A DNA stretch of 64,000 nt from assembly GCA_963920705.1 (NCBI GenBank), contig OY987231.1:22173024-22237023 (forward strand). The letters are read 5' to 3'. How positions within the stretch are numbered: position 1 is the stretch's first letter; each line of letters begins with the position of its first letter. Positions 308 through 52,116 of this stretch are shown in pieces. A program made the position numbers and the translations under genes. Source of the stretch: Odiellus spinosus. Lineage: Eukaryota; Arthropoda; Arachnida; Opiliones; Phalangiidae. A model generated the notes under the pieces. That model saw nothing but the letters and a program-made list of their open reading frames with translations, did not search any database and was not told where the DNA came from.

Positions 308-859
308 GATTGGGGTCGATTTGATCGAATCCCAAATGATCGAACGCTGTCTCAAATGATCGAAGGTCATATGATCGAAATTATTTGGTTTTAAAGGTAG
401 TCTCAATTGATCGAATATCATTTGATCGAAGTGTCATTTGTACGAATGCTTCCTGATCGAAATCAATTTTAGGAGGAAACTTCTAAGACTTGAAGCCCTG
501 CCCGTTTACGCTTCCCTTCCATTGGACCTAACCTAACCTAACCTAACCCAACGTAACCCAACCAAACATAGCCAAGCTTAGGCTTAAGTATTTTTTTGTA
601 CAAAAAAAACTACTTAATTAGTTCGATCATTTTAGGTTCGATCTAATGAGAATAATCCCTAAAGGATTTAGTTCTACTACAATAGTATTTTAAATACTAC
701 TACTTCGATCAATTGTAATTCGATCCAATGGACATCGATCAAATGCCACAAAAGTTAAAACGAGAATAAAATAAATTTGATCGAATTCGATTCGATCATT
801 TGAAACAAAATTTGATCGAATTCGATCAGACATTTTTCGATCTAATGGAAATAAACCAA
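308..859 (+). repeat. Word-repeat element W1, copy 1 (GATCGAA arms, CCTAA core)
   Basis: The phrase TTTGATCGAA or AAATGATCGAA recurs at irregular spacing in the left part and its complement TTCGATCAA in the right part, with a CCTAA run between. The whole 552 bp is nearly identical to 21515-22072. The two copies differ mainly by one CCTAA unit and one A in a homopolymer. No target duplication is visible here, because the right edge abuts a piece of another word-repeat family. I infer a non-autonomous mobile or recombinogenic repeat; no protein is encoded. Confidence 0.8.
526..549 (+). repeat. Telomere-like CCTAA core of W1 copy 1
   Basis: Four perfect CCTAA units followed by degenerate CCCAA and CGTAA variants. 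It matches the insect-type TTAGG telomere unit on the other strand but is far too short for a telomere. Confidence 0.85.
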
Positions 860-868
860 CTGGCACGC

Positions 869-1027
869 CGTCAGCTGAGAATCTTTTCCGCGGATAATGA
901 TTGTAATTTCCTGGCTTCTTGAAAGAACTTTAAATTTCCCTGACTTTTTAAAATATCTTAAAATTCCCTGACTTTTTTTGGTTCATTTTCAAATTCCCTG
1001 ACTTTTCCCTGGTCTGTGGCAACCCTG
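869..1027 (+). repeat. Right half of a TTCCCTGAC word-repeat element
   Basis: From GTCAGCTGAGAATC through three TTCCCTGACTTTT phrases to GGCAACCCTG this matches the right parts of 55930-56215 and 60801-61045. The left half is missing, so this is a truncated copy lying against W1. Confidence 0.7.
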
Positions 1028-2349
1028 ATAGTCTAAAGCACTGTAGGGACACTTCTGGTATTAGTATACTTCTGATTATACTTGATTATAAAGCGCGAAT
1101 ATGGCCTTAAGGAGAATTATAATATAGCGTGTTTGGAATTAACTTTAAGGAAACATACACGAATTAATTAAGTAAAAATTGTCGATTAGCTAAAAAGCTT
1201 GCATGCGCGTTAAAATAAACCTTGAACCTATATTATGCTAATTTTCTCTTAATAGATTCAATATGATTTAGAACTTAAAAAAATATATATTAACGCCCAA
1301 CGAAATATGGCCTAAATCTAAGTATTGCCTCATTTAAACAAACTTCAAAGACGAGTAACCGAATATAACCTTCTGAATTATTCAGGGTTTCAACCCATGA
1401 ATTGTTAATTTCCCTGATTTTTCTATGAATTCCATATATTTTCTAGGTTTTTAATTATAATTAAATTGTGTTTGCTAAATAATTTTAATTAAGGTTGGAT
1501 TCTTTAAAAGGCACGATACAGCCTGGGATAAAAAAGTGGCGACTCCAGGAGGGCCCAAAATATATACTAGGAATCATGTTGGAGGGGCCCCAAATTTTTG
1601 CTCTATTGCAACACTATTCGAACCAAAAATAGGTATCTCGATCAATACTGCAATCTACAATACATTAATATATATCAAGTAAAGTAGGGCAAAAATATCG
1701 AATAAAAAATGATATATAAAATCATGGGAAAAAAAAAATTGGGGGTGGGTTTTTTTTTCCTAACAGCTCGTTCATCTTTTTACAATTTTTATGCCCATGT
1801 CCCTCCTCTTCCCGCAGACGGTACGCGCGTTTTTTTCCCAGAACTAACGCGAACGTATAACGTCTAGGAGCTTTCGTAGGAATTCGAGGAGGTGCCATAA
1901 TGGTGCGTCATTAGACAAAATCAAAAAAAATATATATATATTCTTCAAAAAATAAAAAAAATAAGAATGATTCGAAGCATTATCGTTCGGCTGAAAGACA
2001 GGTCCCCCCTGCACCTTCCTAGTAAAAGCTGGAGATTTATATAATATTATTCATTCTTACTTGTCACTACAGTCAAAGGCTGTTAAATAGCGTATATTAA
2101 AGTTTATTCGAATCTCAAGTAACTTTGATTTCGAAAATGGGATGGGGCTAAAATTTCTCTTCAATCGGATGGGTGGGCAAGAAAGATAGCCGAACTAGGG
2201 CGGCTGAACATTACCGGCTCTTGCATTTCGTACCAATACGACACTACATTGTAAAACCGAAAGACGCTAGTAAAGGGTGGGTGAAACGCAAAAATTTCAT
2301 TTTTTAAATCATCCAATAAAATAACGATGCGAATGCCTCAAGCTTTTAG
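1028..2349. other. AT-rich sequence with a TTCCCTG remnant
   Basis: At 1383-1435 there is a short CAGGGTTTCAACCC segment followed by a TTTCCCTGATTTTT phrase, probably a decayed relic of the same word-repeat class. GC-richer patches near 1540-1600 and 1990-2030 show nothing I recognise. Confidence 0.4.
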
Positions 2350-2686
2350 CAGAAGCCGATGAAACCCTCCTTTGAAGTCTACTACTCTAATGTTCCATAT
2401 AGCGCTCCTCTCTGTATGGGTAAAATTCCCAATTTTACGAGATCGGAGGGGTCCTACTTCATCCCCCCTGTCTACGGAAAATTGGAAATTCTCTCTCTCC
2501 ACAAACGACGACGTTTTTTTGACGAACTCCGAGACTGCTAGAGATATTCGCTCGACGAACTCCCGCTTCGAAAATATCTACCGTTAGGAGGCGTACGAAT
2601 TGCGCTTTTTGAAACTAACCCATACAGAGAAGGGTAGACAAGACCCGAGAGTAATAGACTTCAAAGGAGGGTTTCATCGGCTTCTG
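2350..2686 (+). mobile_element. Family A miniature element (CAGAAGCC ends), copy 1
   Basis: 337-bp non-autonomous element. It begins CAGAAGCCGATGAAACCCTC and ends with the inverted form, with terminal inverted repeats of about 36 bp. A second inverted pair, CTCTCTGTATGGGT, lies just inside. It is flanked by a perfect 7-bp target duplication CTTTTAG (2343-2349 and 2687-2693). Orientation is called + when the CTCTAATGTTC arm is on the left. Short open frames on both strands are by-products of the repeat. The superfamily is uncertain: 7-bp duplications with CA...TG ends would fit P-like elements or atypical hAT elements. Confidence 0.92.
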
Positions 2687-2693
2687 CTTTTAG

Positions 2694-3770
2694 GTATTCG
2701 TGGAATTTATTACTGGCACTCTGAGGTCAGAGGTTATACCTTTATTAGTGTACAATTTCAACAGTTTTTTATTCTGAAGTAAAGCAAAGTAGTATAGTTA
2801 AAAATATATTATTCCACGTTAGGGTTAACGGAGTTTGAAATTAAAATAGGTGATCTCTGATTGGTTGCGATAATTTTAAACAACTTTCTTGTCTAACGGA
2901 AGCTCCTATATGTATTCCTTATTAGATATCGTCTGGTTAAGAGTTATCTGGTGTTTTATTGGTTAATGAATATCAAAGCGATGTAAAAACATAGCATACA
3001 CTAAAATAAACTTCATAAATTGAAGAAAAAATTTAAGGTGTACGTTTTCGAGTTAAGGTAGGCTTAGCGGAGTATGAAATTGAAAAATGATGAGCGATTT
3101 TACCCTCCCTTTATGATATTTCGGAACATAGGAATAGGTACCTTTTTAGGGTATAGAACAATCATTTTGAGACGAATTCAGGCATCCCCAAAAATAAGAG
3201 GAAAAATAATATAAATTTTAGTTCGTTTTTCATCCGTTTCGTGATAAATCAGAGTACAATTCCGATCTGGGATAGCAACTCTCTTGGAGCGAAGCTTATA
3301 GAGACAACGAGGGATAGTAAAGGGCGTAGCTTTAATCGCGTTGTTTTAAAGTAGTGGGACGGACTAAAAGCGCGCACCCCCGCGTTAAGGGAGTTAAAGG
3401 ACGTCGCCAAGCCTTCAACGATTTTTGCCAAATCTCGGTACGTAACGAAATTTGTGTGCATAAATCAGTTTGGACAGGTAGTGATTATATGAAGAGAGAG
3501 AGAGAAAGAGAAATGGTAGGGGGAAAAGGTACAAATGGGGGAAATCCCTCCATATAGCCAAGGCTTAGCTTTAGTTCGTATTATATATCAAGCTTTTCAT
3601 TTTTAGTCACACCTCAAATTCCCATCAGTGGTGGATGTAGCTCTTATATTGTCCTAGAATGTGGAAAAAGACGAAATGTCTCCAGTCTCACAAAAATTAA
3701 ACTTAAATCCAAAAAACTTGTAAAAAGGACAATTCTATTATAAAGTTTACAAAAAAACATTAAAATCCTA
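2694..3770. other. AT-rich sequence with an internal short duplication
   Basis: A motif reading TTARCGGAGTWTGAAATT occurs at about 2826 and again at about 3066, the second with TAGGCTTAGCGG at 3059. A GA-rich run lies at 3490-3515. No gene was recognised. Confidence 0.4.
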
Positions 3771-3912
3771 TACATAGTTTTCAATAAAGTAGGAAATTAG
3801 CTTTCATTTCATTATTAGCGCAGTTCAGAACAGATCAGTTCCAAAACTTAACTTCTAACCTTTCGCTCCGATTTAGTTTGCGCTCACAATAGTTGGCAAC
3901 ACTGCGGGAACT
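3771..3912 (-). mobile_element. Decayed relative of the TA-bounded element at 63543
   Basis: Starts TACATAGTTTTCA and contains CAGTTCAGAACAGATCAGTT and GTTGGCAACA, matching the reverse complement of 63543-63744 with internal deletions. The second terminal repeat is not visible, so the copy is truncated or degraded. Confidence 0.65.
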
Positions 3913-4823: not shown

Positions 4824-4899
4824 GAATTAAGTCTTTTCACGAAAGAGACGGCGTGAAAGCAACAATATCACGTGCCAGAAAGCGTGGGAATCAACTGTA
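4824..4899 (+). repeat. Family K dispersed core
   Basis: Contains TTTTCACGAAAGAGACGGCG, then GCAACAATATCACGTGCCAG and GCGTGGGAATCAACTGTA. The reverse complement at 50231-50309 matches throughout, and shorter matches lie at 6421-6464, 35021-35060 and 55131-55187. Confidence 0.6.
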
Positions 4900-5497: not shown

Positions 5498-6110
5498 ACT
5501 AGCCTTACAAGGCTAAAATTGACAAATCAATTTGTCTGGACACTAGCCTTACAACGAAATCAATAGCCAATTGACAAATCAATTTGTCTGGACACTAGCC
5601 TTACAACGAAATCAATAGCCAATTGACAAATCAATTTGTCTGGACACTAGCCTTACAACGAAATCAATAGCCAATTGACAAATCAATTTGTCTGGACACT
5701 AGCCTTACAACGAAATCAATAGCCAATTGACAAATCAATTTGTCTGGACACTAGCCTTACAACGAAATCAATAGCCAATTGACAAATCAATTTGTCTGGA
5801 CACTAGCCTTACAACGAAATCAATAGCCAATTGACAAATCAATTTGTCTGGACACTTGCCTTACAACGAAATCAATAGCCAATTGACAAATCAATTTGTC
5901 TGGACACTAGCCTTACAACGAAATCAATAGCCAATTGACAAATCAATTGGTCTGAACACTAGCCTTACAACGAAATCAATAGCCAATTGACAAATCAATT
6001 GGTCTGGACACTAGCCTTACAACGAAATCAATAGCCAATTGACAAATCAATTTGTCTGGACACTAGCCTTACAACGAAATCAATAGCCAATTGACAAATC
6101 AATTTGCCTG
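5498..6110 (+). repeat. Tandem array, 52-bp unit, about 12 copies
   Basis: Eleven units of 52 bp begin ACTAGCCTTACAACG at 5542, 5594, 5646 and so on to 6062, preceded by one shorter variant of 44 bp. The units are almost identical; rare changes are ACTTGCC at 5854 and TTGGTCTG near 5948 and 6000. Each unit contains GACAAATCAATTTGTC, a perfect 7-bp stem with a 2-base loop. The last unit breaks off at 6110. Confidence 0.97.
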
Positions 6111-6253
6111 GTGGCGAACTTTGGAGAGTACCATTGGACAGCGCTAAACCTTCGATTAATAATCCTAGCGGGGAAATTGGGACTATATAACCGCGTTCAT
6201 ACTAGGCCTTGTAATCGATTTAAAGCGTTTAAAAACGTTTCGTTAGAGTCTTG

Positions 6254-13040: not shown

Positions 13041-13985
13041 ATAGGGCCCATTTTTGGACTTTTGCTGGATTTGTATCAAGTGGCGAAACACCTTTATCGA
13101 GTGGCGAAACAATATTTTATGATTTTAAAATAATACACAGAATGTGTACTTTCTAATGGTGCAATCGGTTTAAGCCTAGGAGTTGCCAGAGAAAAGTTAC
13201 GGCCATTTGAATTTTAATATAGGGCTCATTTTTGGACTTTTGCTTGATTTGTATCGAGTGGCGAAACACCTTTATCGAGTGGCGAAGCAATATTTTATGA
13301 TTTTAAAATAATATACGGAATGTCTTCTTTTAATGGTGCAATCGGTTTAAGCCTAGGAGTTGCCAGAGAAAAGTTACGGCCATTTGAATTTTAATATAGG
13401 GTTCATTTTTGGACTTTTGCTGGATTTGTATCAAGTGGCGAAACACCTTTATCGAGTGGAGAAACAATATTTTATGATTTTAAAATAATATATGGAATGT
13501 CTTCTTTCTAATTGTGCTATCGGTTTAAGCCTAGGAGTTGCCAGAGAAAAGTTACGGACATTTGAATTTTAATATAGGGTTCATTTTTGGACTTTTGCTT
13601 GATTTGTATCGAGTGGCGAAACACCTTTATCGAGTGGCGAAGCAATATTTTATGATTTTAAAATAATATACGGAATGTCTTCTTTCTAATGGTGCAATCG
13701 GTTTAGGCCTAGGAGTTGCCAGAGAAAAGTTACGGCCATTTGAATTTTAATATAGGGCTCATTTTTGGACTTTTTCTCGATTTGTATCGAGTGGCGAAAC
13801 ACCTTCAATGAGTGGCGAAACAATATTTAATGATCTTAAAATAATACGCAGAATGTGTACTTTCTAACGGTGCAATTGGTTTAGGCCTTGCAGTTGGCTG
13901 AGAAAAGATACGGCCATTTGCATTTTCATAATAGGGTTTAATTTTTGGACTTGTGCTCGATTTTAACCGAGTAGCAAAACCGTGG
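13041..13985 (+). repeat. Tandem array, ~178-bp unit, five full copies plus a partial
   Basis: Units begin ATAGGGYYCATTTTTGGACT at 13041, 13219, 13396, 13574, 13752 and 13931 (spacing 177-179 bp). Within each unit the phrase GAGTGGCGAAACACCTTTAT is echoed 20 bp later as GAGTGGCGAAACAATATTTT. The last units are more diverged than the middle ones. The length is close to nucleosome-repeat satellites. No coding potential was seen. Confidence 0.95.
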
Positions 13986-20605: not shown

Positions 20606-21514
20606 GTAGATTGAACGATTAACTATGGGTAAATGATTGGGGCCACTCGGTAAAATAAGTAGAAAATTGTAAACTAATTTTTCCCTATCCTACTTTGAAA
20701 ACTTCCCAGAGAAGTCTTCCCTCGAACAAAGATATAGAAACAGTTTAAGAAATCAAATTTTCCATTTCACGTATAGATGTCGCGCGTCATGCCAAAAAAA
20801 ACCCGTTAAACCCGTCACTTTTAGCAAGCTTTAGACGGAATTTGCAAAAACGGAAACAAAAAAAGAATAGCTAACCGAGCTGCGCACAAATTAAATTACG
20901 CCTCCTCGCATGCAACGCGATCAAAAACTAACACGATTTTCTTATATTAATGTTAAATAAATCTCCCATGCATAAATACTCTGTCCAAGAAGAGTTGGCA
21001 ACGACTACTTCTTTCTATATGGGTTTTTAACGTGTCGTATCAACGCGCCGAAGCATCTAACTGTTCCGTCAACGTATCTTGACCACGCATATTTAAGTCG
21101 AAGGGAAAAGGGAATGAAAAACGGCAAACAAAAAAAAATAGCGATTAGTTCAACAGTTAAGCGAAATGTAAATGTCGGAATGCGTGTTAAAGAATTAGAT
21201 TTGCAAATAAAAAAAATGATTGGGCAAGAAATCATGAAACACGCGGAGAATGGTTTTTGTTGTTTACTTTTTTGGAAGAAAATTATAGACTTTTGGTTAT
21301 ATTTTATATATTTGAAAGTTAGGCTTAACAATTTAAACTCGAGTATATAGAAGCCGGATATACCAGTAAAAGAGAAAAAGAAAAAAAAAAAAACTATCTC
21401 GTAATAAACAGGTTTTCTAACTAGAAAAAGAATAATACGTCTACAGGTACAAAATATATATTTGAAAATGTTAAATGTAATAAAACTAAAATGGATCTAA
21501 CCTGGAAATAAATG
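20606..21514. other. AT-rich sequence, nothing recognised
   Basis: Overlapping 108-codon (minus, 21005-21331) and 78-codon (plus, 21114-21350) frames lie here. Both peptides are rich in Lys, Ile and Phe without a domain signature. I regard them as chance. Confidence 0.4.
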
Positions 21515-22072
21515 GATTGGGGTCGATTTGATCGAATCCCAAATGATCGAACGCTGTCTCAAATGATCGAAGGTCATATGATCGAAATTATTTGGTTTTA
21601 AAGGTAGTCTCAATTGATCGAATATCATTTGATCGAAGTGTCATTTGTACGAATGCTTCCTGATCGAAATCAATTTTAGGAGGAAACTTCTAAGACTTGA
21701 AGCCCTGCCCGTTTACGCTTCCCTTCCATTGGACCTAACCTAACCTAACCTAACCTAACCCAACGTAACCTAACCAAACATAGCCAAGCTTAGGCTTAAG
21801 TATTTTTTTGTACAAAAAAAAACTACTTAATTAGTTCGATCATTTTAGGTTCGATCTAATGAGAATAATCCCTAAAGGATTTAGTTCTACTACAATAGTA
21901 TTTTAAATACTACTACTTCGATCAATTGTAATTCGATCCAATGGACATCGATCAAATGCCACAAAAGTTAAAACGAGAATAAAATAAATTTGATCGAATT
22001 CGATTCGATCATTTGAAACAAAATTTGATCGAATTCGATCAGACATTTTTCGATCTAATGGAAATAAACCAA
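21515..22072 (+). repeat. Word-repeat element W1, copy 2
   Basis: Near-identical to 308-859, with one extra CCTAA unit and one extra A. It is flanked by AATAAATG at 21507-21514 and 22071-22078, an apparent 8-bp target duplication (the first two bases also match the element edge). This supports insertion as a discrete unit. Arms carry opposed GATCGAA / TTCGATC phrases. No coding capacity was seen. Confidence 0.85.
21733..21761 (+). repeat. Telomere-like CCTAA core of W1 copy 2
   Basis: Five CCTAA units, then CCCAA and CGTAA variants; one unit longer than in copy 1. Confidence 0.85.
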
Positions 22073-22078
22073 TAAATG

Positions 22079-23054
22079 CAAATAGAATTGATTTTACGTC
22101 AAAAGCTAAATAACTAAATAACAAAATATTCAAATATCCCATAACGAAATAAGTTGGGTATTTAGTTTGGACATTAAAATATGAATTTAAATTAAAGGAT
22201 AGGTGTAATGTGAAACAATTTTTTTTTTTTCTTTTGCTGTTTCAATCAGCTGTCTGTTTTTAAATCGCTTTTTATAAATTGCAAAATAATTGGTTGAATT
22301 GACGCGTGTAGTTTTTTTCTTTAGTTGAAACTTTCCTCTTATATTAAACTCTCAGCACAAGGGCAGCACGAAGGGTTGACAATTGGAGGGGGGAGATTTT
22401 TGACAACTTTCAAATATTAATTTTACCCCCCTTCATCGTCATTTTGCCAACTCATTCCCACTGAATTTAGGTTATGTCCTACTCCTTGGTTTCGGAAAAC
22501 AATTAAGAATATTAAGAACATTTTGTGAAAAATATATGGTCAAGAAAAGTGGTATTATAATTATCAATCGATAATATTACGAAATTCTCGTACTAAACAA
22601 GAATCCAGAACTTTGCAGACAGTGTCATAGTGCACGCAAACTAATTAAGAATAATAAACTAATTCGAAGTAATTTATGGTTGTTGAACTTGAACTTCAAA
22701 TACTCTTGTTCAGACTACTTTTTTCTTTATGAAGCGTAACAATGTATATCAATCCGCCTCTGCTTTTTTCATTAAATCAACTCCTCTTTTAAAAAACTAT
22801 GACTTATAATTAGGCTTAGGATTATGGCGAGTTTCAACAAGGATGTAGAAATCACTGAATATATATACATTAAATAAATAACTAGTTTTGGAATTTCAAC
22901 CTGAACTCTTACGTTATACATATACAGGGCCAAACCCCTTTCAGGCCGAAATGTTTTTATTTAAGCCCTATTCACACAATTTTCTCATTCGAAACTATTC
23001 CCTGACTACGTTACCTTAAAATCGCTGATAAATATATTTCAACTTCGGTATAAT
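22079..23054. other. AT-rich sequence
   Basis: Includes a family J core (listed separately) and a C/G-run patch at 22380-22440. No gene was recognised. Confidence 0.4.
22711..22794 (+). repeat. Family J dispersed core
   Basis: Reads GACTACTTTTTTCTTTATGA, then AATGTATATCAATCCGCC, then TTTTTTCATTAAATCAACTC. Very close to 32103-32172. Confidence 0.65.
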
Positions 23055-23378
23055 CAGAAGCCGATGAAACCCTCCTTTGAAGTCTATTACTCCCGGGTCT
23101 TGTCTACCCCTCTCTGTATGGGTTAGTTTCAAAAAGCGCGATTCGTACGCCTCCTAACGCTAGATATTTTCGGAGCGGGAGTTCGTCGAGCGAATATCTC
23201 TAGCAGCCTCGGAGTTCGTCAAAAAAACGTCGTCGTTTGTGGAGAGAGAGAATTTTCAATTTTCCGTAGACAGGGGGGTATGAAGTAGGACCCCCTCCGA
23301 TCTCGTAAAATTGTGAATTTTACCCATACAGAGAGGCGCGCTATATCGAACATTAGAGTAGTAGACTTCAAAGGAGGG
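23055..23378 (-). mobile_element. Family A element, copy 2, right end lost
   Basis: The left terminal repeat CAGAAGCCGATGAAACCC and the full interior are present, but the right repeat stops after CTTCAAAGGAGGG, and the last ~15 bases of the terminus are absent. A perfect short palindrome replaces them (see 23375-23405). Confidence 0.88.
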
Positions 23379-23405
23379 ATCTCATGTATTATACATGAGA
23401 TCCCT
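23375..23405. other. Perfect 14-bp palindrome at a broken element end
   Basis: AGGGATCTCATGTA, a 3-base spacer TTA, then TACATGAGATCCCT. It spans the junction between the truncated family A copy and a word-repeat fragment that starts with CCCTGAC. Confidence 0.85.
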
Positions 23406-23625: not shown

Positions 23626-24079
23626 ATCTATCTCTTATAGTTTCCAAACACAACCATTGGATGAACTTAATAAGTTATTAAACTATATTAATGCTTAAAT
23701 CATTGGATTGGTGTGAAAGGCGCTTATGACAAATGTTCAAATATCATTCGCGTAAAAGTATTGGCGAATGGGCCCTCAGGGACGATAAATTTCGTTTTTT
23801 ACCCCAATGGCGTTTACCACTAATGAATTCGAAAAAGCTTTAGATATTCATGATCCCCTGGGCAACAAAATTATTACCAACGAACGAGAAAAAGGAATGG
23901 AAATATGGTGTTTTTTATTTCCCGAACGTTCGCGAGTTGTTCGCATTTTCACGAGATTATCCATTTGATTTTATTAAGGAATGGTGTATGAAAGACGAAA
24001 AAATATAGATATTAAAGTCATAAGACAGTAACAAGCGACGGAATTATCTTTAAATTCAATTAAAATTAATTAGTACGAA
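23626..24079. other. AT-rich sequence, nothing recognised
   Basis: No supported frame or repeat. Confidence 0.4.
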
Positions 24080-24680
24080 CGGTTCTACCCCGATTCGCCC
24101 AAAACATTTGGCCCAATTCCCATTTCGCCAAATCTCAATTGGCCCAATCCTAACTGGCCCAATCCCAACTGGCCCAATTTCCAATCAGCCCAATTTATTA
24201 GGCCCAATTCCCAATCAGCCCAATTTATTAGGCCCAATCCTATTTCGTCCAATCCCATTTCCCCTAATTCCCATTTCGCCAAATCACATTTCGCATAATT
24301 CCATTTTTGCCAAATTCTTATTTCGCCCAATCCACACCCAAGGCATATGCGAACAAAATCCTCTTGATCGGTTCCTTCGTCCTGTTTAATTATTTCTACC
24401 TAACCTAACTTAACCTAACAATTTTAGGCGAAACGGGAAAAGGAATTTTAGGTTGAGCGAAATGGGAATAGATAATTCTTTACTAACTGATAAAACGATT
24501 GGGCGAAGTGGGATTGGGCGAAGTGGGATTGGGCGAATTGGGACAAGGAAATTTTGGTTTGGGCGAATTGGGAATCGATAATTTTGGGCCAAATGATAAT
24601 ATGTTTGGGTGAAGTAGGATTGGGCAAAATGGGAATAGATAATTTTGGGCGAAATATTTGGGCGAAATGGGAACAAACCG
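24080..24680. repeat. Word-repeat element W2 (GGCCCAATTCC arms, CCTAA core)
   Basis: The left arm iterates GGCCCAATCCCA and TTTCGCCAAATC. The right arm iterates the complementary phrase GGGCGAATTGGGA and GGGCGAAGTGGGATT. A CCTAA run (24398-24420) lies between. The ends pair approximately as an inverted repeat (CGGTTCTACCCCGATTCGCC versus CGGTTTGTTCCCATTTCGCC), flanked by TACGAA on both sides (24074-24079 and 24681-24686). Open frames on both strands are repeat by-products. Confidence 0.8.
24398..24420 (+). repeat. Telomere-like core of W2
   Basis: ACCTAACCTAACTTAACCTA: four CCTAA units, one with a T substitution. Confidence 0.8.
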
Positions 24681-25830
24681 TACGAACATTCAGCAAGTGT
24701 CTGTGAATTAAAAAAAAAAAACATCGGAAACCTGACTTTAGGATTAAATTAAAAGTAGAACCTCCGACTAATCAAAAGACGCCAAACCTTTGGCTTAATC
24801 ACATCCCCGCGACACGTGCTGCGGCAAACTCTTTGAATCGCGCCAAATCTCGTTCATGATATATTTTCTCGGGCAAAACCGATTATAGATGGCGCCACGT
24901 GTTCAAAACGTATTTGGTTTCAATCTCAAACTATCTAGCTATATCTTGGCCAATCATCGCGAGGCCCATTACTTACGTTACAAACAACTTAGATTTTAAT
25001 TTTGAAAAATTATCTCTAAAACATTTTTTAAAATTGTTTTGACGTTATATTATCCCTTGAAATTCATAACCCTGATCGTGCTTGACATTTATGTAAAAAA
25101 AAAAAAAAAAGCTAGAGCTAAAAATAAATTGTGTGTGAGTGCGCTGGGAAAAAATGTCTTAAAACTAACTGGGAAAAATATGTCCTAAGCCTAACTAGCA
25201 AACATAGCTCCATGAACAATATATTATGCACAAAAACAACCATAATTGTTATCAGTCATGAAAAAACATTACGTAAAACTATGAAAGGGAACAAATATTA
25301 AGTACTTATAGTAAAAATATTCTTACGAAGTTAGGAACTACTTTTTTTTTTATTACGTATCAATCCAAATCAGGTTTCGATAACTATATAAATTAACTGA
25401 TATTGAAGATATTGCTAAGCCTCGGTTGCAAGTGGGGCATGTTAATACCAATGTTACTGTCTAAAGAAATTGAAATAATGATGGGAAAGATGTAAGGAGT
25501 CAGGAAACAGGTTGGATAAATATTGAAACTATGGATTAATTAGATATTGGCTTTAAATGTAGTTAAACATCGCAAAAAACCTTCGCCAAATAGAAAGAGC
25601 ATGTATAAAGCGAAACAAACGTTCCCAAAATACGTAAGCAATTTTTGAAAACATGCTTCATACTTAATACTTATTAAGGTGACTATCGTGTTGTCAAATA
25701 ATCGACGATCAGTGTCATATGCAACACATCGGACAAATCGACCTATTAAAATAAAGTTATAATTAATTAGTAAAACTATACACACAATTATAGATATCAA
25801 TCCTAAAATTTTAATATATATATATATGAA
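24681..25830. other. AT-rich sequence
   Basis: Poly-A at 25096-25110. A family J relative (TTATTACGTATCAATCC) is at 25335-25370. No gene was recognised. Confidence 0.4.
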
Positions 25831-26142
25831 CAGAAGCCGATGAAACCCTCCTTTGAAGTCTATTACTCCCGGGTCTTGTCTACCCCTCTCTGTATGGGTT
25901 ATTCTCAAAAGGCGCGATTCGTACGCCTCCTAACGGTAGATGTTTTCGGAGCGGAAGCTCGTCGAGCGAATATCTCTAGCAGCCTCGGAGTTCGTCCAAT
26001 AAACGTCGTCGTTTGTGGAGAGAGAGAATTTCCAATTTTCCGTAGACAGGGGGCATGAAGTAGGAATTTTACCCATACAGAGAGGAGCGCTATATGGAAC
26101 ATTGGAGTAGTAGACTTCAAAGGAGGGTTTCATCGGCTTCTG
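25831..26142 (-). mobile_element. Family A element, copy 3, internal deletion
   Basis: 312 bp, about 25 bp shorter than other copies because the stretch after ATGAAGTAGGA is missing. Both termini are intact and a perfect 7-bp duplication ATATGAA flanks it (25824-25830 and 26143-26149). Confidence 0.92.
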
Positions 26143-26306
26143 ATATGAAGAATAGGCGGATTAATAAGCAATGTTAATCCTCAGTGAGGATAAAAGAAGC
26201 TTAACTTAACTGCTCGCGAACAGAAGTATATGTGTATATCAAAATGTTTTCCATATAACTTCTAATTTCAAAATCTTTGCAATTTTGTAAAAAAATATTG
26301 TAACCA

Positions 26307-31449: not shown

Positions 31450-31513
31450 ACAAACTCATTAATCAATGGATGTAAGGATAAAAACATTCTAAATGTAATC
31501 CTTTACGCAAAAC

Positions 31514-31851
31514 CAGAAGCCGATGAAACCCTCCTTTGAAGTCTACTACTCTAATGTTCGATATAGCGCTCCTCTCTGTATGGGTAAAATTCACAATTTT
31601 ACGAGATCGGAGGGGTCCTACTTCATACCCCCCTGTCTACGGAAAATTGGAAATTCTCTCTCTCCACAAACGACGACGTTTTTTTGACGAACTCCAAGGC
31701 TGCTAGAGATATTCGCTCGACGAACTCCCGCTCCGAAAATATCTACCGTTAGGAGGCGTACGAATCGCGCTTTTTGAAACTAACCCATACAGAGAGGGGT
31801 AGACAAGACCCGGGAGTAATAGACTTCGAAGGAGGGTTTCATCGGCTTCTG
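31514..31851 (+). mobile_element. Family A element, copy 4
   Basis: 338 bp, same orientation as the copy at 2350. Perfect 7-bp duplication GCAAAAC (31507-31513 and 31852-31858). Confidence 0.93.
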
Positions 31852-33120: not shown

Positions 33121-33640
33121 ACGTGAAATTCATAAAACAATTGCGCGTGAAATTCGTAAATCAATTGCGCGTGAAATTCATAAATAAATTGCGCGCGAAA
33201 TTCATAAAACAATTGCGCGCGAAATTCATAAAACAATTTCGCGCGAAATTCATAAAACAATTGCGCGCGAAATTCATAAAACAATTTCGCGCGAAATTCA
33301 TAAAACAATTTCGCGCGAAATTCATAAAATAATTGCGCGTGAAATTCTTAAAACAATTGGGTGCTAAATTCATAAAACAATTGCGCGCGAAATTCTTAAA
33401 ACAATTGCGCGCGAAATTCTTAAAACAATTGCGCGCTAAATTCATAAAACAATTGCGCGTGAAATTCTTAAATCAATTGCGCCAAAATTAATTATATGCG
33501 CGCGAAATTCATTAAATAATTGCGCGCACAGTTCATAAAGCATTTGCGCGCGAAATTCATAAAACAATGCGCGCAAAGTTCATAAAACAATTGCGCGCGA
33601 AATTCATAAAACAATTGCGCGCAAAATTCATAAAACAATT
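33121..33640 (+). repeat. Tandem array, 24-bp unit, about 21 copies
   Basis: The unit is GCGCGCGAAATTCATAAAAC plus AATT, with GCGCGTG, TTCTTAAAAC and GCTAAATTC variants. It is more regular in the first 350 bp, with scrambled units at 33480-33540. The 24-bp period is a multiple of three, so every frame stays open and yields octapeptide-like products on both strands. I regard these as by-products. Confidence 0.97.
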
Positions 33641-34628: not shown

Positions 34629-34965
34629 CAGAAGCCGATGAAACCCTCCTTTGAAGTCTATTACTCCCGGGTCTTGTCTACCCCTCTCTGTATGGGTTAT
34701 TCTCAAAAGGCGCGATCCGTACGCCTCCTAACGGTAGATATTTTCGGAGCGGGAGCTCGTCGAGCGAATATCTCTAGCAGCCTTGGAGTTCGTCCAAAAA
34801 ACGTCGTCGTTTGTGGAGAGAGAGAATTTCCAATTTTCCGTAGACAGGGGGGATGAAGTAGGACCCCTTCTAACTCGTAAAATTGGGAAATTTACCCATA
34901 CAGAGAGGAGCGCTATATGGAACATTGGAGTAGTAGACTTCAAAGGAGGGTTTCATCGGCTTCTG
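34629..34965 (-). mobile_element. Family A element, copy 5, no target duplication
   Basis: 337 bp with both terminal repeats intact, but the flanks (TCTGGG before, ACAAAAT after) do not match. Another copy in the same orientation begins 296 bp downstream. Confidence 0.92.
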
Positions 34966-35260
34966 ACAAAATATAAATCATCAGGTAACGTAATTTCTCT
35001 TGAACTTTACGATTTCTGGAGTAAGTACTTTCACGAAAAAGACTGCGCGAATTCCGATGGCGCTTAAATCGATTCCGATTGGTTTGATTTTAAAGTTTAA
35101 AATCGATTTGGATACGCTAGTTTTACAGTAACGTGGATTCTTGTTAAGCCTACTTTTCGGGTTCAATTAAAATTGATTTATAGCCTAATATTTGTTTGTA
35201 TTTTGCGTTAAACGATGAGGAATATATAGGCAATCAATTGTCGCCCGATATCATTCTCAT
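34966..35260. other. Spacer between two family A copies
   Basis: Carries a family K core at 35021-35060 and GTTAAGCCTAC at about 35144. Confidence 0.5.
35021..35060 (+). repeat. Family K dispersed core
   Basis: GTAAGTACTTTCACGAAAAA followed by GACTGCGCGAA. Confidence 0.5.
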
Positions 35261-35596
35261 CAGAAGCCGATGAAACCCTCCTTTGAAGTCTATTACTCCC
35301 GGGTCTTGTCTACCCCTCTCTGTATGGGTTAGTTTCAAAAAGCGCGATTCGTACGCCTCCTAACGGTAGATATTTTCGGAGCGGGAGTTCGTCGAGGGAA
35401 TATCTCTAGCAGCCTTGGAATTCGTCCAAAAAACGTCGTCGTTTGTGGAGAGAGAGAATTTCCAATTTTCCGTAGACAGGGGGCATGAAGTAGGACCCCT
35501 CCGATCTCGTAAAATCGTGAATTTTACCCATACAGGGAAGCGCGCTATATGGAACATTAGAGTAGTAGACTTCTAAGGAAGGTTCATCGGCTTCTG
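35261..35596 (-). mobile_element. Family A element, copy 6
   Basis: 336 bp with perfect 7-bp duplication TTCTCAT (35254-35260 and 35597-35603). The right terminal repeat has small changes (CTTCTAAGGAAGG). Confidence 0.93.
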
Positions 35597-37240: not shown

Positions 37241-37247
37241 ATAATAC

Positions 37248-38238: not shown

Positions 38239-38245
38239 ATATAGA

Positions 38246-38582
38246 CAGAAGCTGATGAAACCCTCCTTTGAAGTCTATTACTCCCGGGTCTTGTCTACCC
38301 CTCTCTGTATGGATTATTCTCAAAAGGCGCGATTCGTACGCCTCCTAACGGTAGATGTTTTCGGAGCGGGAGTTCGTCGAGCGAATATCTCTAGCAGCCT
38401 CGGAGTTCGTCCAAAAAACGTCGTCGTTTGTGGAGAGAGAGAATTTCCAATTTTCCGTAGACAGGGGGGATGAAGTAGGACCCCTTCTAACTCGTAAAAT
38501 TGGGAATTTTACCCATACAGAGAGGAGCGCTATATCGAACATTGGAGTAGTAGACTTCAAAGGAGGGTTTCATCGGCTTCTG
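38246..38582 (-). mobile_element. Family A element, copy 7
   Basis: 337 bp with perfect 7-bp duplication ATATAGA (38239-38245 and 38583-38589). The left end carries one change (AGAAGCTGATG). Confidence 0.93.
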
Positions 38583-38810
38583 ATATAGACTCAAGTAGAG
38601 ATAAGGGAGACTTTTAAAGGGTTAGGACATGATAACAAATATAAATAAATTTTAAATATTTAATATTAATAAAAATATATTTAAAATATATATATTTTTT
38701 AAATATTATAATTTTAATTAAAACGTAATACAAAGCCTTTGATTTTGTATCCAACAAGCGTAATAGTTTTTTAAAGAAAATAGCCACGAGATTTACAATT
38801 GCATATTCGA

Positions 38811-41362: not shown

Positions 41363-41560
41363 TGAAAGTATGCTTTTAATATAGCCAAGCGGGGGCCACA
41401 GACAGAAATACGCCAGAAATTGAAAGACGCTCTTCGATGAAGATTTTTATAAACTAACAGGCAAACACCAAGTAACTCCTAAGTTTTAGAAAACACTACT
41501 CGAATGAAATCTAATCTACCTAAAAATCAGAGTGCAGTTTTCCATTTCCGCAGATTTTAT

Positions 41561-41579
41561 TTAGGTAGGGCTAGGTTAG
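41561..41579 (-). repeat. Telomere-like core of W4
   Basis: TTAGGTAGGGCTAGGTTAG: degenerate TTAGG units, in the orientation opposite to the CCTAA runs elsewhere. Confidence 0.55.
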
Positions 41580-41661
41580 TGCCTACAAAAAAGTAATGGT
41601 AAACTGCGCAAACGGAAAACTGCGCAAAACGGAAATCTGCGCAAATGGAAATCTGTATAAT

Positions 41662-41997
41662 CAGAAGCCGATGAAACCCTCCTTTGAAGTCTATTACTCC
41701 GTGGTCTTGTCTACCCCTCTCTGTATGGGTTAGTTTCAAAAAGCGCGATTCGTACGCCTCCTAACGGTAGATATTTTCGGACCGGGAGTTCGTCCAGCGA
41801 ATATCTCTAGCAGCCTCGGAGTTCGTCAAAAAACGTCGTCGTTTGTGGAGAGAGAGAATTTCCAATTTTCCGTAGAGAGGGGGTATGAAGTAGGACCCCT
41901 CCGATCTCGTAAAATTGGGAATTTTACCCATACAGAGAGGAGCGCTATATCGAACATTAGAGTAGTAGACTTCAAAGGAGGGTTTCATCTACTTCTG
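41662..41997 (-). mobile_element. Family A element, copy 8, nested in W4
   Basis: 336 bp with perfect 7-bp duplication GTATAAT (41655-41661 and 41998-42004). The right end has two changes (ATCTACTTCTG). Confidence 0.93.
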
Positions 41998-42105
41998 GTA
42001 TAATTGGAAAACTGCGCAAACGACAAACTGCGCAAATGGGAAACTGCGCAAAGGGAAATCTGTATAAATGGAAAACTGCGCAAACGAAAAACTGCGCATA
42101 TGTAA

Positions 42106-45100
42106 CCAAATCTTTTTGTATTCCTCTAGGAAAATCAAGCGCTCGAGGGGCAAGTTATTTTGCTCCGTCTTTTTCTAAAGAGAAAGCAACCCCGAACTAT
42201 TGCTTTTGACTAAAATCATATATATTGTTAATACCTTTTTGAACTAAGATATGTTAACAAAAAGTCAAAAAACAATTTCTGATATGAAAAAGTAAGTCCT
42301 TGTTTTTGAATCAAAACGGGGGACCCGTCAAAATGACGAAAGAAGAAAGAAAACGGGCCCGAAAAGATTATTCGCCGTACAATCCAAACACATCACACAT
42401 CACAAAACTTTCATCAAAAAAAAAAAACAAAAAAACCTAGGCTTAGCTGACAATCTGACAAGACTTAACAGGGGGGATAGAAATGAAGGTGGGATGAATT
42501 ACATCAAGAAGTTATTCCCAATTATGATCTAAGCTTCATCTAACATAAGTCAAGTTACAGCTAGAATCCATCCTTATAATAATATAATCCTTTGTTTATC
42601 ATACCGGTATCATTTACATAATTTATTTAATAATAATGTTAACATAAGTATATAATAAACTCCTTAAGGGTGAAATTTCTAGCTTGAAAATTCCATTCTC
42701 CAGAAGAAATAGACTTTAGTTACTGCGCAATTATAGTTTTAGAAAGGTCGCATTGTAAAATTTTGGGGGTCAATTGTTAGTTTGAATCCTTAATTTGCTG
42801 TAAACAAAATTGAGCAAAGAACTGTATAAATTAAGCGGGTAGAATTCGGCCTATTTTCATTACACTATCTGTTTTTACCACTATATCATCTCAAAATGCA
42901 ATTCAACCAAATCCAAACCTTACTACTAGTTAACCATGTCGTTAAATCTTCAAAGCAAAAGCTTGTAGATCATAGCTCTGTATTTATTGCGTCCTAGGAA
43001 TGAAATAAAACATTCGGAACTGTCGGATTCCGGGGAAATATTTTTTGGTATCAGGCTTCGATAGCTCTCTCTATAATTTAACGCTAAGCGCCTTCAAGCA
43101 GGGCCGAATATATTTTGTTTTCATCCGTGCATTTACCCGCTTTGCTTGTCACTAAGAACATTATAATATCAGGTTACATTATCGTACAATCTTCGGTGCA
43201 AAGAGATAAGAGTCATAACACTTTCACCAAAGCGTAGTATAGAAGAATAAAAGAAATTTATACCCAAAAAAATATATAGAAAAATTCATGGTTTTGAACA
43301 AGGCACGCATCCAGGATGAGAGATAAGAATTTGACCGACTGACCCAATCTTTTTTTTTTGTTTAGTTTACGATTCAACGCGTTGAAAGTTTGTTTTCTTG
43401 ATTTTTTTTATCTATTTTATCTTAAGCCTTGTTCATGCATGTCTCAATGATTCAATGATTCACTTCCTAGCGGAAAACAAAAACAACACATAAAAACTTC
43501 GCTTCTTTAAGTGAAAGTTATCGACTCAATGATTTCGATTTAATTTCGAACCTTTGTTTGTTTCTATATATGATATTTAAAATTTAAAAGTTCGAATAAT
43601 TAAAAACTTAAATGGGTTTAAATAAATTGAATTTAAAGAGATGTTTGGATAAAATTTAATCTTAGAAGCTGGATTAATTAAAGTAGCTCAAACTCAAGCG
43701 GTATTAGGCTTTCCATTGCCATACTTATAATTTAATTTTTATGTTATTTATGGTTATATTATTTAAAATTAAAATAAATTCAAAATATTTATGTTTAAAA
43801 TTATTACGTTCTACCAGTATTGAAAAATTAAATTTAATTGTTAAAATGAATCCAAAAAAATTAAATAAAATCTAAAAGAAATAAATTAACAATTATCCTT
43901 ATAACGTTTAAGGATTAAACCTGTTAAATTTAATTATACTTTAAAAAAATCTTTCGAAATGATTAACTTAGTTTAATTTATACTACCAGTATTAAAAAAT
44001 ACTAAATTCTAGTTATAAATTAAATAATAATGTAAAATAATTGTTAAAATGAACACGAAAAAGCTTTCGTAGGGTGACAATTAAATGAACAATTATCCGC
44101 ATTTAAATATAATTATAATGGGTGTCGACTAATTTCCGAACAAAGAATTAACACGGATAGATTAAAAGTTAATTTTATACCTTCCTTAAAAAATTTGGAC
44201 TATTTTTATCCTACGAGATTTATAATTAGGTATTAATCCGCCCCTAATTTCAGCCGTATATAGTTTGGGAAAATTAAATAAATTTATTAGTTTTAAGCAT
44301 TAAGTAAAGCATTCACGTAAATTCTACATTTTGCCAAATGAAATGAAAACGACGAAAGAATTTGCTTAAAGCTCTTACATAATTAGGTTAATGACTAATG
44401 AAAAAAATAACTCCGCGCAAATGTCGGAAAAAGTGGCAAAATATTATTAGCAAAAGCGAGAAAAGTCTAGAAAGCTTACAATAAATAGCCACGACTCTTA
44501 AATGATACGAAAAACAATTATAACCTGGTCGTTTTTATATGCTAATCTAATCCCAACGGCGTTTTTAATAACGAGACCTATATGTATCATTAAATACCAT
44601 AAACACGACGGATTAAGTCGTAATTATGCTAATTTTTAATCCTTACTCTTACAACGATCAAGCGTTTATGTTCCATTCAAAAGAAGTGTAAAAGTTTTTA
44701 GTGACTATTAATTTTCCTGATATAATTTACGAAATATTTTCCGAAAAGCTAGCTCTTTAATTTTTGTTCGTTTGTGTTGAGTTTTAATAGCAGAAACTTG
44801 TTTAAAATTTAAATCTATTTTAAATAATTTTAATTTTAAGATAAAATTAGTTTTTGAATTTCTTAGAAGTAGGTGGCGTTAAGAACCTATTGGGTTTCCG
44901 TTTTAACTCATCAAATTCTGGTCGTGGGGAATTCTAAATAATGAGGATTTGTTAACGAACGTTCTTCAAGAGAGACTAACAATATCTTATTGTATGTGAA
45001 CAGTCCCTAAGTTAGTCCCATAGCTACTTTCTAAGACTCGGCAGACACGAGACTATTTTTTTTTTATACTTCTTTAGACAAGTGTTTGACGATAGATGAG

Positions 45101-48746: not shown

Positions 48747-49038
48747 CAAGAAGGATCAGATAAGGAGAGGAAAAGTGGGAACGGCGCGGCTCCTACTGCG
48801 TCGGCCTAAACTCCCACTCTGGGAGAACGTGGGACAGACGGGGGTAGAGATGCTTCGTGGTAAATTGTTGTCACGTTGGTAAAACGAATCCTTTATGAGA
48901 CGCGCTAGCTAGCGACCACGTGACAACAGTTTACCTCGAGAATTTCCTATCCCCCCTTTCCACCCGAGTGGGAGGTTGGCTCTTCTCTCTCTAACTCAAC
49001 GCAGCCCCACTTTTCCTCTCCTTATCTGATCCTTCTTG
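48747..49038 (+). mobile_element. Family C miniature element, copy 1
   Basis: 292 bp. The ends are CAAGAAGGATCAGATAAGGA and its inverse (terminal repeats of at least 33 bp, through GAGGAAAAGTGGG). The flanks AATAGAG (48740-48746) and ATTAGAG (49039-49045) match at six of seven bases. The interior is a long imperfect palindrome (CCCACTC...GAGTGGG, GTTGTCACGT...ACGTGACAAC). Confidence 0.9.
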
Positions 49039-49399
49039 ATTAGAGTGAAGAAAAATATTCATTATATATTTAGAATATAGAAAGTAATATATTTATCAGA
49101 ATTTTAATTGAGAGACAAAATATTTCTTGTAAAAAATCAAGTGAAATAAAATATAATTTATGGATTCAAGCTAGATCATTTCATAGCCCCTTTAAACGCG
49201 GAAAAAATAGATTCTAGGAATTTTAAAAAATTTTGCGCAAAAATAGGGAAGCACCCCTTTAATGTTTTCTTATACGACGTGAATTTACAAAATCAACCCG
49301 GGTTGCCTGAAATTTCGGTAATAAAAAAATATTTCCTTTTAAAACTGAGCAATAACTTTACGCTTGAACTAATCCTTAAAACTATAAGATTTAGTCAAA

Positions 49400-49783
49400 A
49401 TGATGGCGACCCTTAATTTCTTTAAGCATGCTTTTGATGGTTACGAAAAAAAAACAATGGTTTTGAACTTTTACTCGATTTTGATAGAAAAAAATACCTC
49501 AAGGAAATATAGAACATTTCCCATAGAAAATCCCGATTTCTCTAACAATATTAAATATTGGATCTGTCAAAAAAACAATTACAGACCTATCAACGTTGTC
49601 AATCAATTCGGACAAAGGTTTCTAGTGGTCAGAAATCCGACAATCGCGACTCCACCCATACACTTTGATATATATAATTACATCAAACTCCTAAGACAAA
49701 CAATATCAGCGAACGAAAAATATAGAATTTTGTTCGATATTAAGTTTACACAACGTGAAAAGTGGTGGCGGATTGATACGTAA
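49400..49783 (+). CDS. Unrecognised 127-codon open reading frame
   Basis: I do not recognise this product. The frame starts ATGATGGCG at 49400 with an in-frame TAA five codons upstream (49385) and ends TAA at 49783. The peptide is rich in Asn, Lys, Ile, Phe and Tyr. No signal peptide, membrane segment, coiled coil or metal-binding motif is evident; the C-terminus reads KWWRIDT. The last codons and stop lie in a family J repeat core on the opposite strand (CGGATTGATACG), which argues against a conserved gene. It lies between opposed family C elements. A frame of this length is uncommon but possible by chance in 64 kb this AT-rich. It could be a fragment of an exon, a relic of an element, or random. 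Confidence 0.2.
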   Translation: MMATLNFFKHAFDGYEKKTMVLNFYSILIEKNTSRKYRTFPIENPDFSNNIKYWICQKNNYRPINVVNQFGQRFLVVRNPTIATPPIHFDIYNYIKLLRQTISANEKYRILFDIKFTQREKWWRIDT

Positions 49784-49812
49784 TATTAAATCTTATAGGA
49801 AATAAAGTGGTC
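49762..49812 (-). repeat. Family J dispersed core
   Basis: On the minus strand GACCACTTTATTTCCTATAA, then TTTAATATTACGTATCAATC and CGCC. Confidence 0.6.
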
Positions 49813-49943
49813 AACGCTAACTAAGATCGGATGTCACGACTTTTCATCTTTGGAAGTTACAGTAAAAATACATATTTTATAATTAAATAAAAAATTCCCC
49901 GCAATACTACGTCATCAATATCGTCGCGTGGGTATTGTAGAGT

Positions 49944-50223
49944 CAAGAAGGATCAGATAAGGAGAGGAAAAGTGGGGCTGCGTTGAGTTAGAGAGAGAAG
50001 AGCCAACCTCCCACTCGGGTGGAAAGGGGGATAGGAAATTCTCGAGGTAAACTGTTGTCACGTGGTCGCTAGCTAGCGCGTCTCATAAAGGATTCGTTTT
50101 ACCCACGTGACAACAATTTACCACGAAGCATCTCTTCCCCCGTCCTCCCAGAGTGGGAGTTTAGGCCGACGCAGTAGGAGCCGCGCCGTTCCCACTTTTC
50201 CTCTCCTTATCTGATCCTTCTTG
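49944..50223 (-). mobile_element. Family C miniature element, copy 2
   Basis: 280 bp, opposite in orientation to copy 1 and highly similar. Perfect 7-bp duplication GTAGAGT (49937-49943 and 50224-50230). Confidence 0.93.
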
Positions 50224-50230
50224 GTAGAGT

Positions 50231-50309
50231 TTACAGTTGATTCCCACGCGATCTGGCACGTGATGAGGTCGCTTTCGCGCGGTCTTTTTTATGAAAGTAC
50301 TTAATTTCG
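50231..50309 (-). repeat. Family K dispersed core
   Basis: ACAGTTGATTCCCACGCG, then TCTGGCACGTGATGAGG and GCTTTCGCGCGGTC: the inverse of 4824-4899. Confidence 0.6.
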
Positions 50310-51220
50310 TACGCAAACATGTCGGATAATCTCAGGCGTTTTTAGATATAATAAGCACCCGTCACGTGATCACTACAAAATATTTTCCGAGGGTATTCCT
50401 TCACGGCCGTACGCGTATATGTACTCCGAAGATTCTGTTATGATTCAATATTTTACGACCATAATTAAATTATAATTAGCCTCGAGGGGAGAAGGGAATA
50501 AATTTATATCTGGGTTTTAGGCTTTATTAAATTTAATTTGCTAAATTGAAATTCGATGTAGGCTTAGCGAAAATAAAAAAAAAAACAAAGAAACTAAAGA
50601 ATCGGATGAATTTAAAAAGCGAACAACGTAACAGTGTGTCCCGCGAGATCGAGGAGCCCGCCGAAATTCAACGGGAGTCAAGCGAATCATGAAATTGCTC
50701 TAACACGCGTCAGATAGGAACCCTGGGCTATACGTGTCAACCTGAAGATTGACATACAGATCACGACTTTTTCTCTCTCTCTCTATAAAATTGGCCCATT
50801 ATCCCAACTCGCGTCAAGAATTTATAAATCGGTATATAGACTAAAATCATTTCGGACTCTTTCTAACATGTTCCGATTTTTCAAAAACAAAATAAAAAAA
50901 GACACTGTAAATTGAATACAGAAGGAAATGCTGCATAATGAAGACGCTAAAGAAATCGACCACTAATAAATCTTAATTTAATCTAAGACTTAGTCATTAA
51001 AAAATATTTAACTAAGCATCATTTTTAATAATGATGATATCTTCAAAGATTCTAGGCATAGTCTTATAAATCAAAGAACCAGTCGTGGGTGGGGTTTCAA
51101 CTCGCTATATGTCTCGCAACATTTGATTGGCTTTTGAAGCGTACACCTTAATGACGTAAACCTAAATTGTTTCCTCCTTAAAAACATTTCAGCCTCCTTA
51201 TGGATGAATTTAAGGCTCAG
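50310..51220. other. Unannotated sequence
   Basis: TAGGCTTAGCG at 50559; a CT run near 50770-50785. No gene was recognised. Confidence 0.4.
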
Positions 51221-51671
51221 TACCATTGGATCGAAATTCATTTGATCGACACGGGGTCCATTAGATCGAAATTCAATGGATCGACATGCAGAACCAAATG
51301 ATCGACACTTACAAAAAGAAGATTCAAATGATCGACAGTTAAAAAGATTGAGTGGTATAGATATGAAGTACCATTGGATCGACATGCAGAACCAAATGAT
51401 CGAAAATATCAAATATCAGTTTAAAAAAAGCCAAAAACTCTTGAAGTTTGATCTTATGGGAAGTTAAAAAACGCATATATATATACAAAAAAATTAGAGT
51501 GAGGCTGTCATTATTTTAGAATGCCCATGGATTATTTAATTATTATTTACATCTCTGGGTTGGTGTGGCTAAAAATTGAGGCGGTTGGGTATGTAATGTT
51601 TGTACTCGAGTTTATATAGAGTAACGACTTCAAAGGCGGATTTCATCTACCCCTGTCCAACATTATATATG

Positions 51672-51696
51672 ACCTAACCTAACCTAACCTAACCCT
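51672..51696 (+). repeat. Telomere-like core of W3
   Basis: Four CCTAA units followed by CCCTA. Confidence 0.85.
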
Positions 51697-51842
51697 ACAA
51701 AACCCAATCATTTTATTTATTAACCAAATAATTTCGATTATTTAACACACCATTTTCACGATGCGGATTCAAACTCAGTATCTTTTTACAATCCATGCGG
51801 GCTACCCTTTCGGGCAACGGGTCACGGCATCTCAATTAAAAC

Positions 51843-52112
51843 GAGAGAGACTGTCGATCAAATAAATTTCGATCAATTGGGGCTAATCCGTCGATCAAAT
51901 GAGACACACTGTCGATCAGATAAATTTCGATCCAATGGACCCTATGTCGATCGAATGAATTTCTATCTATTGGTAAAAAAACACGAGAGACTGTCGATCA
52001 AATAAATTTCGATCAAATGGGGCTATCCCGTCGATCAAATGAGACACACTGTCGATCAGATAAATTTCGATCCAAAGGACCCTTTGTCGATCGGATGAAT
52101 TTCTATCTATTA
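51843..52112 (+). repeat. 140-bp tandem duplication of the W3 right arm
   Basis: Two copies starting CACGAGAGACTGTCGATCAA-type at about 51843 and 51982, differing at a few positions (for example CAATTGG versus CAAATGG). Confidence 0.85.
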
Positions 52113-52116
52113 GTAA

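Follow-up and report, generated by a model that had tools for sequence, protein, structure and literature searches.

Foldback elements, in which short iterated units are arranged in opposed arms, are an established kind of mobile DNA, of which Tm1 is an example (PMC3169594; published papers are represented here and below by extracts). In Galileo the arm repeats contain extra transposase-binding sites (PMC3688188). In the IS256 family, whose transposases are similar to those of eukaryotic Mutator-like elements (MULEs), the 3'-OH of one end attacks DNA flanking the opposite end and the junctions are non-uniform in length; its member ISCth4 makes 8-bp target duplications and integrates best with a 6-bp spacer (PMC7780238). 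We describe here the word-repeat elements T1 (copies T1a and T1b), T2, T3 and T4 in a 64,000-bp stretch of the Odiellus spinosus genome (contig OY987231.1, positions 22,173,024 to 22,237,023; "the window" below). T1, T2 and T4 are non-autonomous foldback-type DNA transposons of 550–909 bp with inward-reading word arms around a CCTAA run. This arm plan is already known; what appears surprising, judging from the junction letters, is a scar of left-end letters in the right flank, which may record a step of transposition that bacterial elements are known to take.

Foldback elements in the window

The elements and their target duplicates are as follows.

308..857, + strand: T1a, foldback element with GATCGAA words, 550 bp; ends as in T1b, target duplication absent
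21507..21514, + strand: left target duplicate of T1b, AATAAATG
21515..22070, + strand: T1b, foldback element, 556 bp
22071..22078, + strand: right target duplicate of T1b, AATAAATG, exact and scar-free
24073..24080, + strand: left target duplicate of T2, GTACGAAC
24081..24679, + strand: T2, foldback element, 599 bp, GCCCAAT words with a period of 15–16 bp
24680..24687, + strand: right target duplicate of T2, GTACGAAC, exact and scar-free
~41515..42107, no strand assigned: T3, damaged element, GCGCAG words (2 left, 8 right), ends uncertain
51206..51213, + strand: left target duplicate of T4, GAATTTAA
51214..52122, + strand: T4, foldback element, 909 bp, GATCGA words
51838-51976 and 51978-52116, + strand: tandemly doubled right arm of T4
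52123..52130, + strand: right target duplicate of T4, GAATTGGC; five target letters, then GGC, which is T4's own start
52128-52130: scar in the right duplicate of T4, GGC

Repeat scans of the window find iterated words in all five intervals. An unbiased scan of the whole window for 7-mers repeated in one 350-bp half with their reverse complements in the other half scores 48 at T2, 22 at T1b, 22 at T1a and 17 at T4; the other peaks are tandem satellites at 33325 (score 20) and 5775 (15) and three weak peaks of 4, and three Markov-1 shuffled windows reach at most 2. T3, which is interrupted by an unrelated miniature inverted-repeat transposable element (MITE) at 41662-41997 and has two words in its left arm against eight in its right, scores 0. 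The single architecture that an earlier note on this DNA had seen in all five intervals is thus present in T1a, T1b, T2 and T4, and for T3 only the words stand. Folded as single strands, T1b, T2 and T4 are far more stable than dinucleotide shuffles (z of -6.5, -7.7 and -5.5, respectively). From its words, T3 may be a damaged, lopsided relative that lacks a clear CCTAA run, although this kinship is a hint only.

At both ends of T1b and of T2 the first word starts 15 nt inside the element, and the T4 ends were set at 51214 and 52122 by this rule. Exact 8-bp duplications flank T1b (AATAAATG) and T2 (GTACGAAC), the two that had already been judged plausible. The T4 flanks, GAATTTAA and GAATTGGC, are alike at five of eight letters, which agrees with the scar rule obtained below from genome copies. 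T1a and T1b differ by one mismatch and six gap columns; no target duplication is found at the two flanks of T1a although both of its ends are intact, and recombination between copies, as proposed for one Tm1 copy, is a possible reason. Of the earlier suggestions, the single architecture with several word types, a common mobilising mechanism and the reality of the target duplications are upheld; the observation of the earlier note is largely real and its interpretation partly supported.

We note that T4 arms lengthen by tandem duplication: the right arm of the window copy has gained about 140 bp in this way (51838-52116), and the left arm in many genome copies (several of loci L048-L076) about 153 bp.

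Target duplications and scar in genome copies

The host genome (G000) comprises 443,074,358 bp in 286 contigs. The searches scored 40 of 157 candidates for T1 and 40 of 168 for T4, so copy numbers are lower bounds: T1 has at least 44 matches, some being halves of one copy, of which at least 37 are nearly full-length and 93–100% identical, and T4 has at least 179, many being pieces of the same copies. Junctions were read in 40 T1 copies (38 fetched and the two in the window; loci L002-L008 repeat seven of them) and in 30 T4 loci that include the window copy, both ends being recognised in 18; locus L052 was merged with L050 on identical junction letters. T2 is represented by the window copy. Pairs of the words gave no pattern matches in viral contigs (four scans) or in contigs of prokaryote genomes (two scans), collections in which the host is not expected.

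T1 and T4 duplicate an 8–9 bp target at integration. The first five letters of the duplicate (N5) are the same on both sides in 37 of 40 T1 and 14 of 18 T4 copies, and when the stagger (8 or 9) is picked for each copy by the best N5 match it is 9 bp in 23 and 8 bp in 14 of these T1 copies, and 9 bp in 11 and 8 bp in 3 of the T4 copies. There are 34 different N5 among the 37 T1 copies and these are therefore independent sites. The duplicates are exact throughout in 11 of the 37 T1 copies and in none of the 14 T4 copies. In the other 26 T1 copies the right duplicate deviates from position 6 onward, with G at that position in 25; no such excess of G is seen in the left duplicate, nor in the exact class (2 of 11).

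The last 3–4 bp of the right duplicate are usually replaced by the element's own first 1–4 letters, so that where the left flank reads N5 and then x, the right flank, beyond an intact element, reads N5, k letters of the left end and the rest of x. The window T4 copy, GAATT TAA on the left and GAATT GGC on the right, is an example. This prefix rule (first k letters of the left end, then original letters) fits 21 of 26 T1 copies with GATT and 11 of 14 T4 copies with that family's own left end, GGCT. Among all 256 tetramers the best in each family is its own left end, and the median tetramer fits no copy. The complete tetramer stands at positions 6–9 in 8 of 26 T1 and 7 of 14 T4 copies; at a shift of one base outward the counts are 1 and 2, respectively. 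As a control, the MITE family M of the same window has exact 7-bp duplicates in six of its eight copies (read by eye).

Empty sites show which duplicate is the original. They were usable for 11 of the 51 copies with exact N5, which lie in repeats that have uninterrupted versions (L006 at only 72% identity); the queries include the left duplicate, which gives a slight lean toward the left. At positions 6, 7, 8 and 9 the left duplicate has the empty-site consensus letter in 9/11, 11/11, 11/11 and 6/6 cases and the right duplicate in 2/11, 6/11, 7/11 and 3/6, while at positions 1–5 the two sides agree with it equally, indicating that the left duplicate is original and the right one altered. One T4 copy (L053) is inserted in a satellite of 21-bp units, GTTTTAATCTTCTTAATCCCA with variants, that serves as its empty site; it is flanked by GTTTTAATC on the left and GTTTTGGCT on the right, after which the satellite resumes in step, and letters were therefore overwritten and none added. 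The right duplicate is thus overwritten without lengthening.

A possible origin of the scar

The letters that follow N5 are the one-strand reading expected after a joining of the left 3' terminus to the strand at a point 5 nt beyond the right end and, read from the flanks, they are consistent with IS256-type transfer, with which copy-out begins in that family and in which one end is joined 5–6 nt outside the other. We infer strand transfer, trimming and the type of transposase from this agreement, and give slightly less than an even chance to the proposal that these foldback transposons bear the scar of left-end strand transfer about 5 nt outside the right end, an abortive IS256-type joint. 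A transposase that probably binds the inward-reading words of these non-autonomous elements would nick the left end of an integrated copy, and the 3' end so made would attack that strand again beyond the right end, at a distance of about 5 nt and seldom of 6. The resulting one-strand joint, left end–N5–right end, would resemble the figure-eight of the IS256 family, and the joined left strand would form a 5' flap at the nick. If the joint were never completed and were undone by flap trimming 1–4 letters inside the flap, followed by sealing, left-end letters would replace 1–4 target letters in the right flank, and refilling of the left end from the complementary strand would leave an intact element. 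Such trimming and sealing would account for the prefix rule, the constant length, the intact left end and the one-sidedness, and the scar would mark copies that had tried to act as donors. A stronger version, which we hold as a rather doubtful possibility, is that the elements perform IS256-like asymmetric transfer from the left end to 5–6 nt outside the right, i.e. copy-out, and that each scar is a fossil figure-eight, its length of 1–4 letters being readable in the assembly by itself.

Several points weigh against this proposal. Five of the 26 T1 and three of the 14 T4 copies do not follow the prefix rule (in three of these eight the tetramer stands one position farther from the element), and exact N5 is missing in 3 of 40 T1 and 4 of 18 T4 copies. 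The single T2 copy has an exact duplicate and no scar, and at the ends of T3 the N5 matches are no better than background and no duplicate is readable. No transposase is found among 12 proteins of the window, none being above a Pfam cut-off, and no autonomous copy was met. Since a copy-out event that ran to completion would be expected to leave the flank unscarred, the scar can attest abortive events at most, and a template switch at integration predicts identical letters. One paper, by its title, reportedly likens MULE transposition to that of hAT elements and to V(D)J recombination. Eukaryotic DNA transposons are also described as largely cut-and-paste (PMC7780238).

Alternative explanations

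The template switch just mentioned would place the scar in plain cut-and-paste integration, with no figure-eight: the polymerase that fills the 8–9 nt gap on the right would first copy target letters, then switch to the 5' tip of the left end lying next to it, copy its last 1–4 letters outward, run off and return to N5. It predicts the same letters, polarity and unchanged length, and no figure-eight or circle has been observed so far; it offers, however, no natural reason for the near-fixed 5-nt offset, and we know of no case of such a switch, which also counts against it. That offset nearly equals the spacers in IS256-family figure-eights (PMC7780238), and this likewise weighs against the switch, which we judge rather unlikely but the main rival. 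If instead T1 and T4 were plain foldback transposons and their 8–9 bp duplications had since been altered through mutation or small conversions, the left-end letters would be a coincidence or a target preference. The 11 of 37 T1 duplicates that are exact throughout would fit such decay, and altered copies are on record for foldback elements that have 8–10 bp duplications (PMC4079207, PMC3169594). Decay is nevertheless very improbable in our opinion: each of the two families has its own left end as the best of 256 tetramers, the empty sites show that the right copy changed, the exact class lacks the G preference at position 6 (2/11), and full-length T1 copies, at 93–100% identity, are too alike for it.

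A third explanation would have a telomere-linked mechanism build word-repeat elements around CCTAA runs, and the earlier note had likewise suggested a role for telomere-type DNA and a run in all five intervals. The places in the window with at least 20 of 30 matches to the CCTAA/TTAGG repeat number four and all lie inside these elements, one each in T1a, T1b, T2 and T4; the five intervals together make up 5.0% of the window. T3 is absent among these places and so the claim of a run in every interval fails for it. In 38 longer loci (139,008 bp) chosen for holding T1 or T4 we counted 24 runs with at least three units; when the queries lacked the cores, every one of the 24 had a T1 or T4 arm match no more than 250 bp away on each side. 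Such runs were absent from the roughly 79,900 bp of these loci that lie away from T1/T4 matches. Against this explanation, the copies are dispersed and nearly identical, with fixed ends and target duplications, which shows that the unit of transposition is the whole element; T3 lacks the run, and the longest run ranges from 2 to 27 units among the 38 fetched T1 loci. Because its length drifts in this way the run behaves as an internal microsatellite of the elements; the runs lie inside elements with ends and duplications of their own, unlike interstitial telomeric sequence from break repair. A telomere-linked origin is scarcely credible on these grounds; nothing links the run to telomere function, and the role for telomere-type DNA that had been suggested earlier is not supported.

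527..546, + strand: CCTAA run of T1a, 4 units
21734..21758, + strand: CCTAA run of T1b, 5 units
24399..24408, + strand: CCTAA run of T2, 2 exact units, imperfect on to ~24419
51673..51692, + strand: CCTAA run of T4, 4 units

Some T1 copies of G000 are lengthened at or near the run (C1:20695310-20695933, C1:19332333-19332981 and C3:13418497-13419161); among the three fetched loci of this kind (L044-L046), L044 alone has a long exact run, of 27 units. In the T4 core, just before its run, lies a fragment like one end of element M (51615-51655).

Implications

To our knowledge it is not settled whether copy-out occurs among the DNA transposons of eukaryotes. A directional scar in two families with different left ends is a sequence-level handle on this question: the scar tells which of the two ends attacks, at what place and at what frequency, and any assembly with foldback or Mutator-like elements can be searched for it. 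"Imperfect" target duplications, usually taken as decayed, may be informative, and word arrays and CCTAA cores are ordinary parts of a mobile element.

Kinship among the word types

The GATCGA word is common to T1 and T4, whose cores are also similar. Where T1 and T2 end on the right, 12 of the 15 outer letters are identical, a level reached by 5.5e-5 of the window's 15-mers, but at their left ends only 6 are; each T4 end has 10 of 15 letters in common with the right end of T1. The earlier statements that the phrases are unrelated, and that the elements are not one family by descent, are accordingly too strong for T1–T4 and T1–T2, while kinship of T3 is not shown. A unit common to all word types (CCATTT plus core) was considered and rejected: its hand-picked consensus was reached by 4 of 20,000 letter shuffles, and a stricter column-permutation test supports T1–T4 alone (0 of 2000 permutations reach it) and T1–T2 weakly (31 of 2000), the counts for T2–T3, T2–T4, T1–T3 and T3–T4 being 143, 214, 669 and 1693. 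By sequence comparison such a unit is a hint only.

Other repeats in the window

MITE family M, about 340 bp long with inverted ends CAGAAGCCGATGAAACC, has eight copies in the 64 kb. One of them is inserted in T3:

41662..41997, + strand: MITE M inserted in T3, outside T3 proper, with 7-bp duplicates GTATAAT at 41655-41661 and 41998-42004

The others are at 2347-2692, 23048-23388, 25825-26146, 31512-31851, 34629-34965, 35259-35596 and 38240-38586; the copy in T3 is counted with them as 41655-42001. A 28-bp motif with ATTCCCTGACTTTTTAAA or similar forms short tandem arrays at 905-977, 56125-56195 and 60946-61006, and further tandem arrays lie at 5517-6111 (period 52 bp), 13041-13963 (178 bp), 33125-33640 (24 bp) and 52763-53278 (19–42 bp).

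Comparison with known systems

T1, T2 and T4 have the inverted arms of short internal repeats that characterise foldback elements (T3 is lopsided), and T1 and T4 have fixed ends and constant-length duplications (8–9 bp) in dispersed copies. The target duplication of about 9 bp by which MULEs are recognised is also found in T1 and T4, although 8-bp duplications occur in other superfamilies as well. Helitrons make no target duplication and insert between A and T, which the 8–9 bp duplications do not fit; short interspersed elements (SINEs) have an RNA polymerase III head and an A-rich or simple 3' tail, whereas inverted word arms stand at both ends here and ARAGORN finds no tRNA in the window. 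The elements fit neither Helitron nor SINE, in line with the earlier note. An Rfam search gave no match. The sea-urchin TU elements are foldback elements with tandem units of about 15 bp and 8-bp duplications.

The plan of these elements had been thought to belong to no named class; foldback transposons have it, and among those compared from the literature the closest is Tm1, a Mutator/Foldback element of root-knot nematodes (PMC3169594). Tm1 likewise has opposed arms of a variable number of ~14-bp units, end motifs that differ between its ends, fixed-length duplications and mostly non-autonomous copies, some of them without a duplication. It differs in its unit sequence, in its 9-bp duplications (8–9 bp here) and in having a known MULE transposase (none is found among 12 window proteins here), and no CCTAA core or scar in the right flank is spoken of in the extracts of its description (PMC3169594). 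Galileo and the Drosophila Foldback elements share long, internally repetitive inverted arms, but Galileo, set beside our elements by description only, belongs to the P superfamily (PMC3688188). Tetris of Drosophila virilis is a non-autonomous foldback element with tandem arm repeats and 8–10 bp duplications; its repeats, however, are about 220 bp and its arms up to 1,735 bp long (PMC4079207).

For the scar itself we met no report in listings and extracts of a literature from which subscription journals were mostly absent, in searches not directed at this particular feature. The likeness to ISCth4 and the IS256 family is in mechanism only (8-bp duplications, attack by one end beside the other, spacers of 5–6 nt); these elements are bacterial and autonomous with simple ends, and a flank scar is unmentioned in the extracts of their description (PMC7780238). 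The eukaryotic KolobokP has TTAA duplications, and its excision loses 1–5 flanking bp on one side, with no left-end letters described beside a resident copy in the extracts; its excision traces, however, are called reminiscent of IS3/IS256 copy-out by their authors (PMC9587614).

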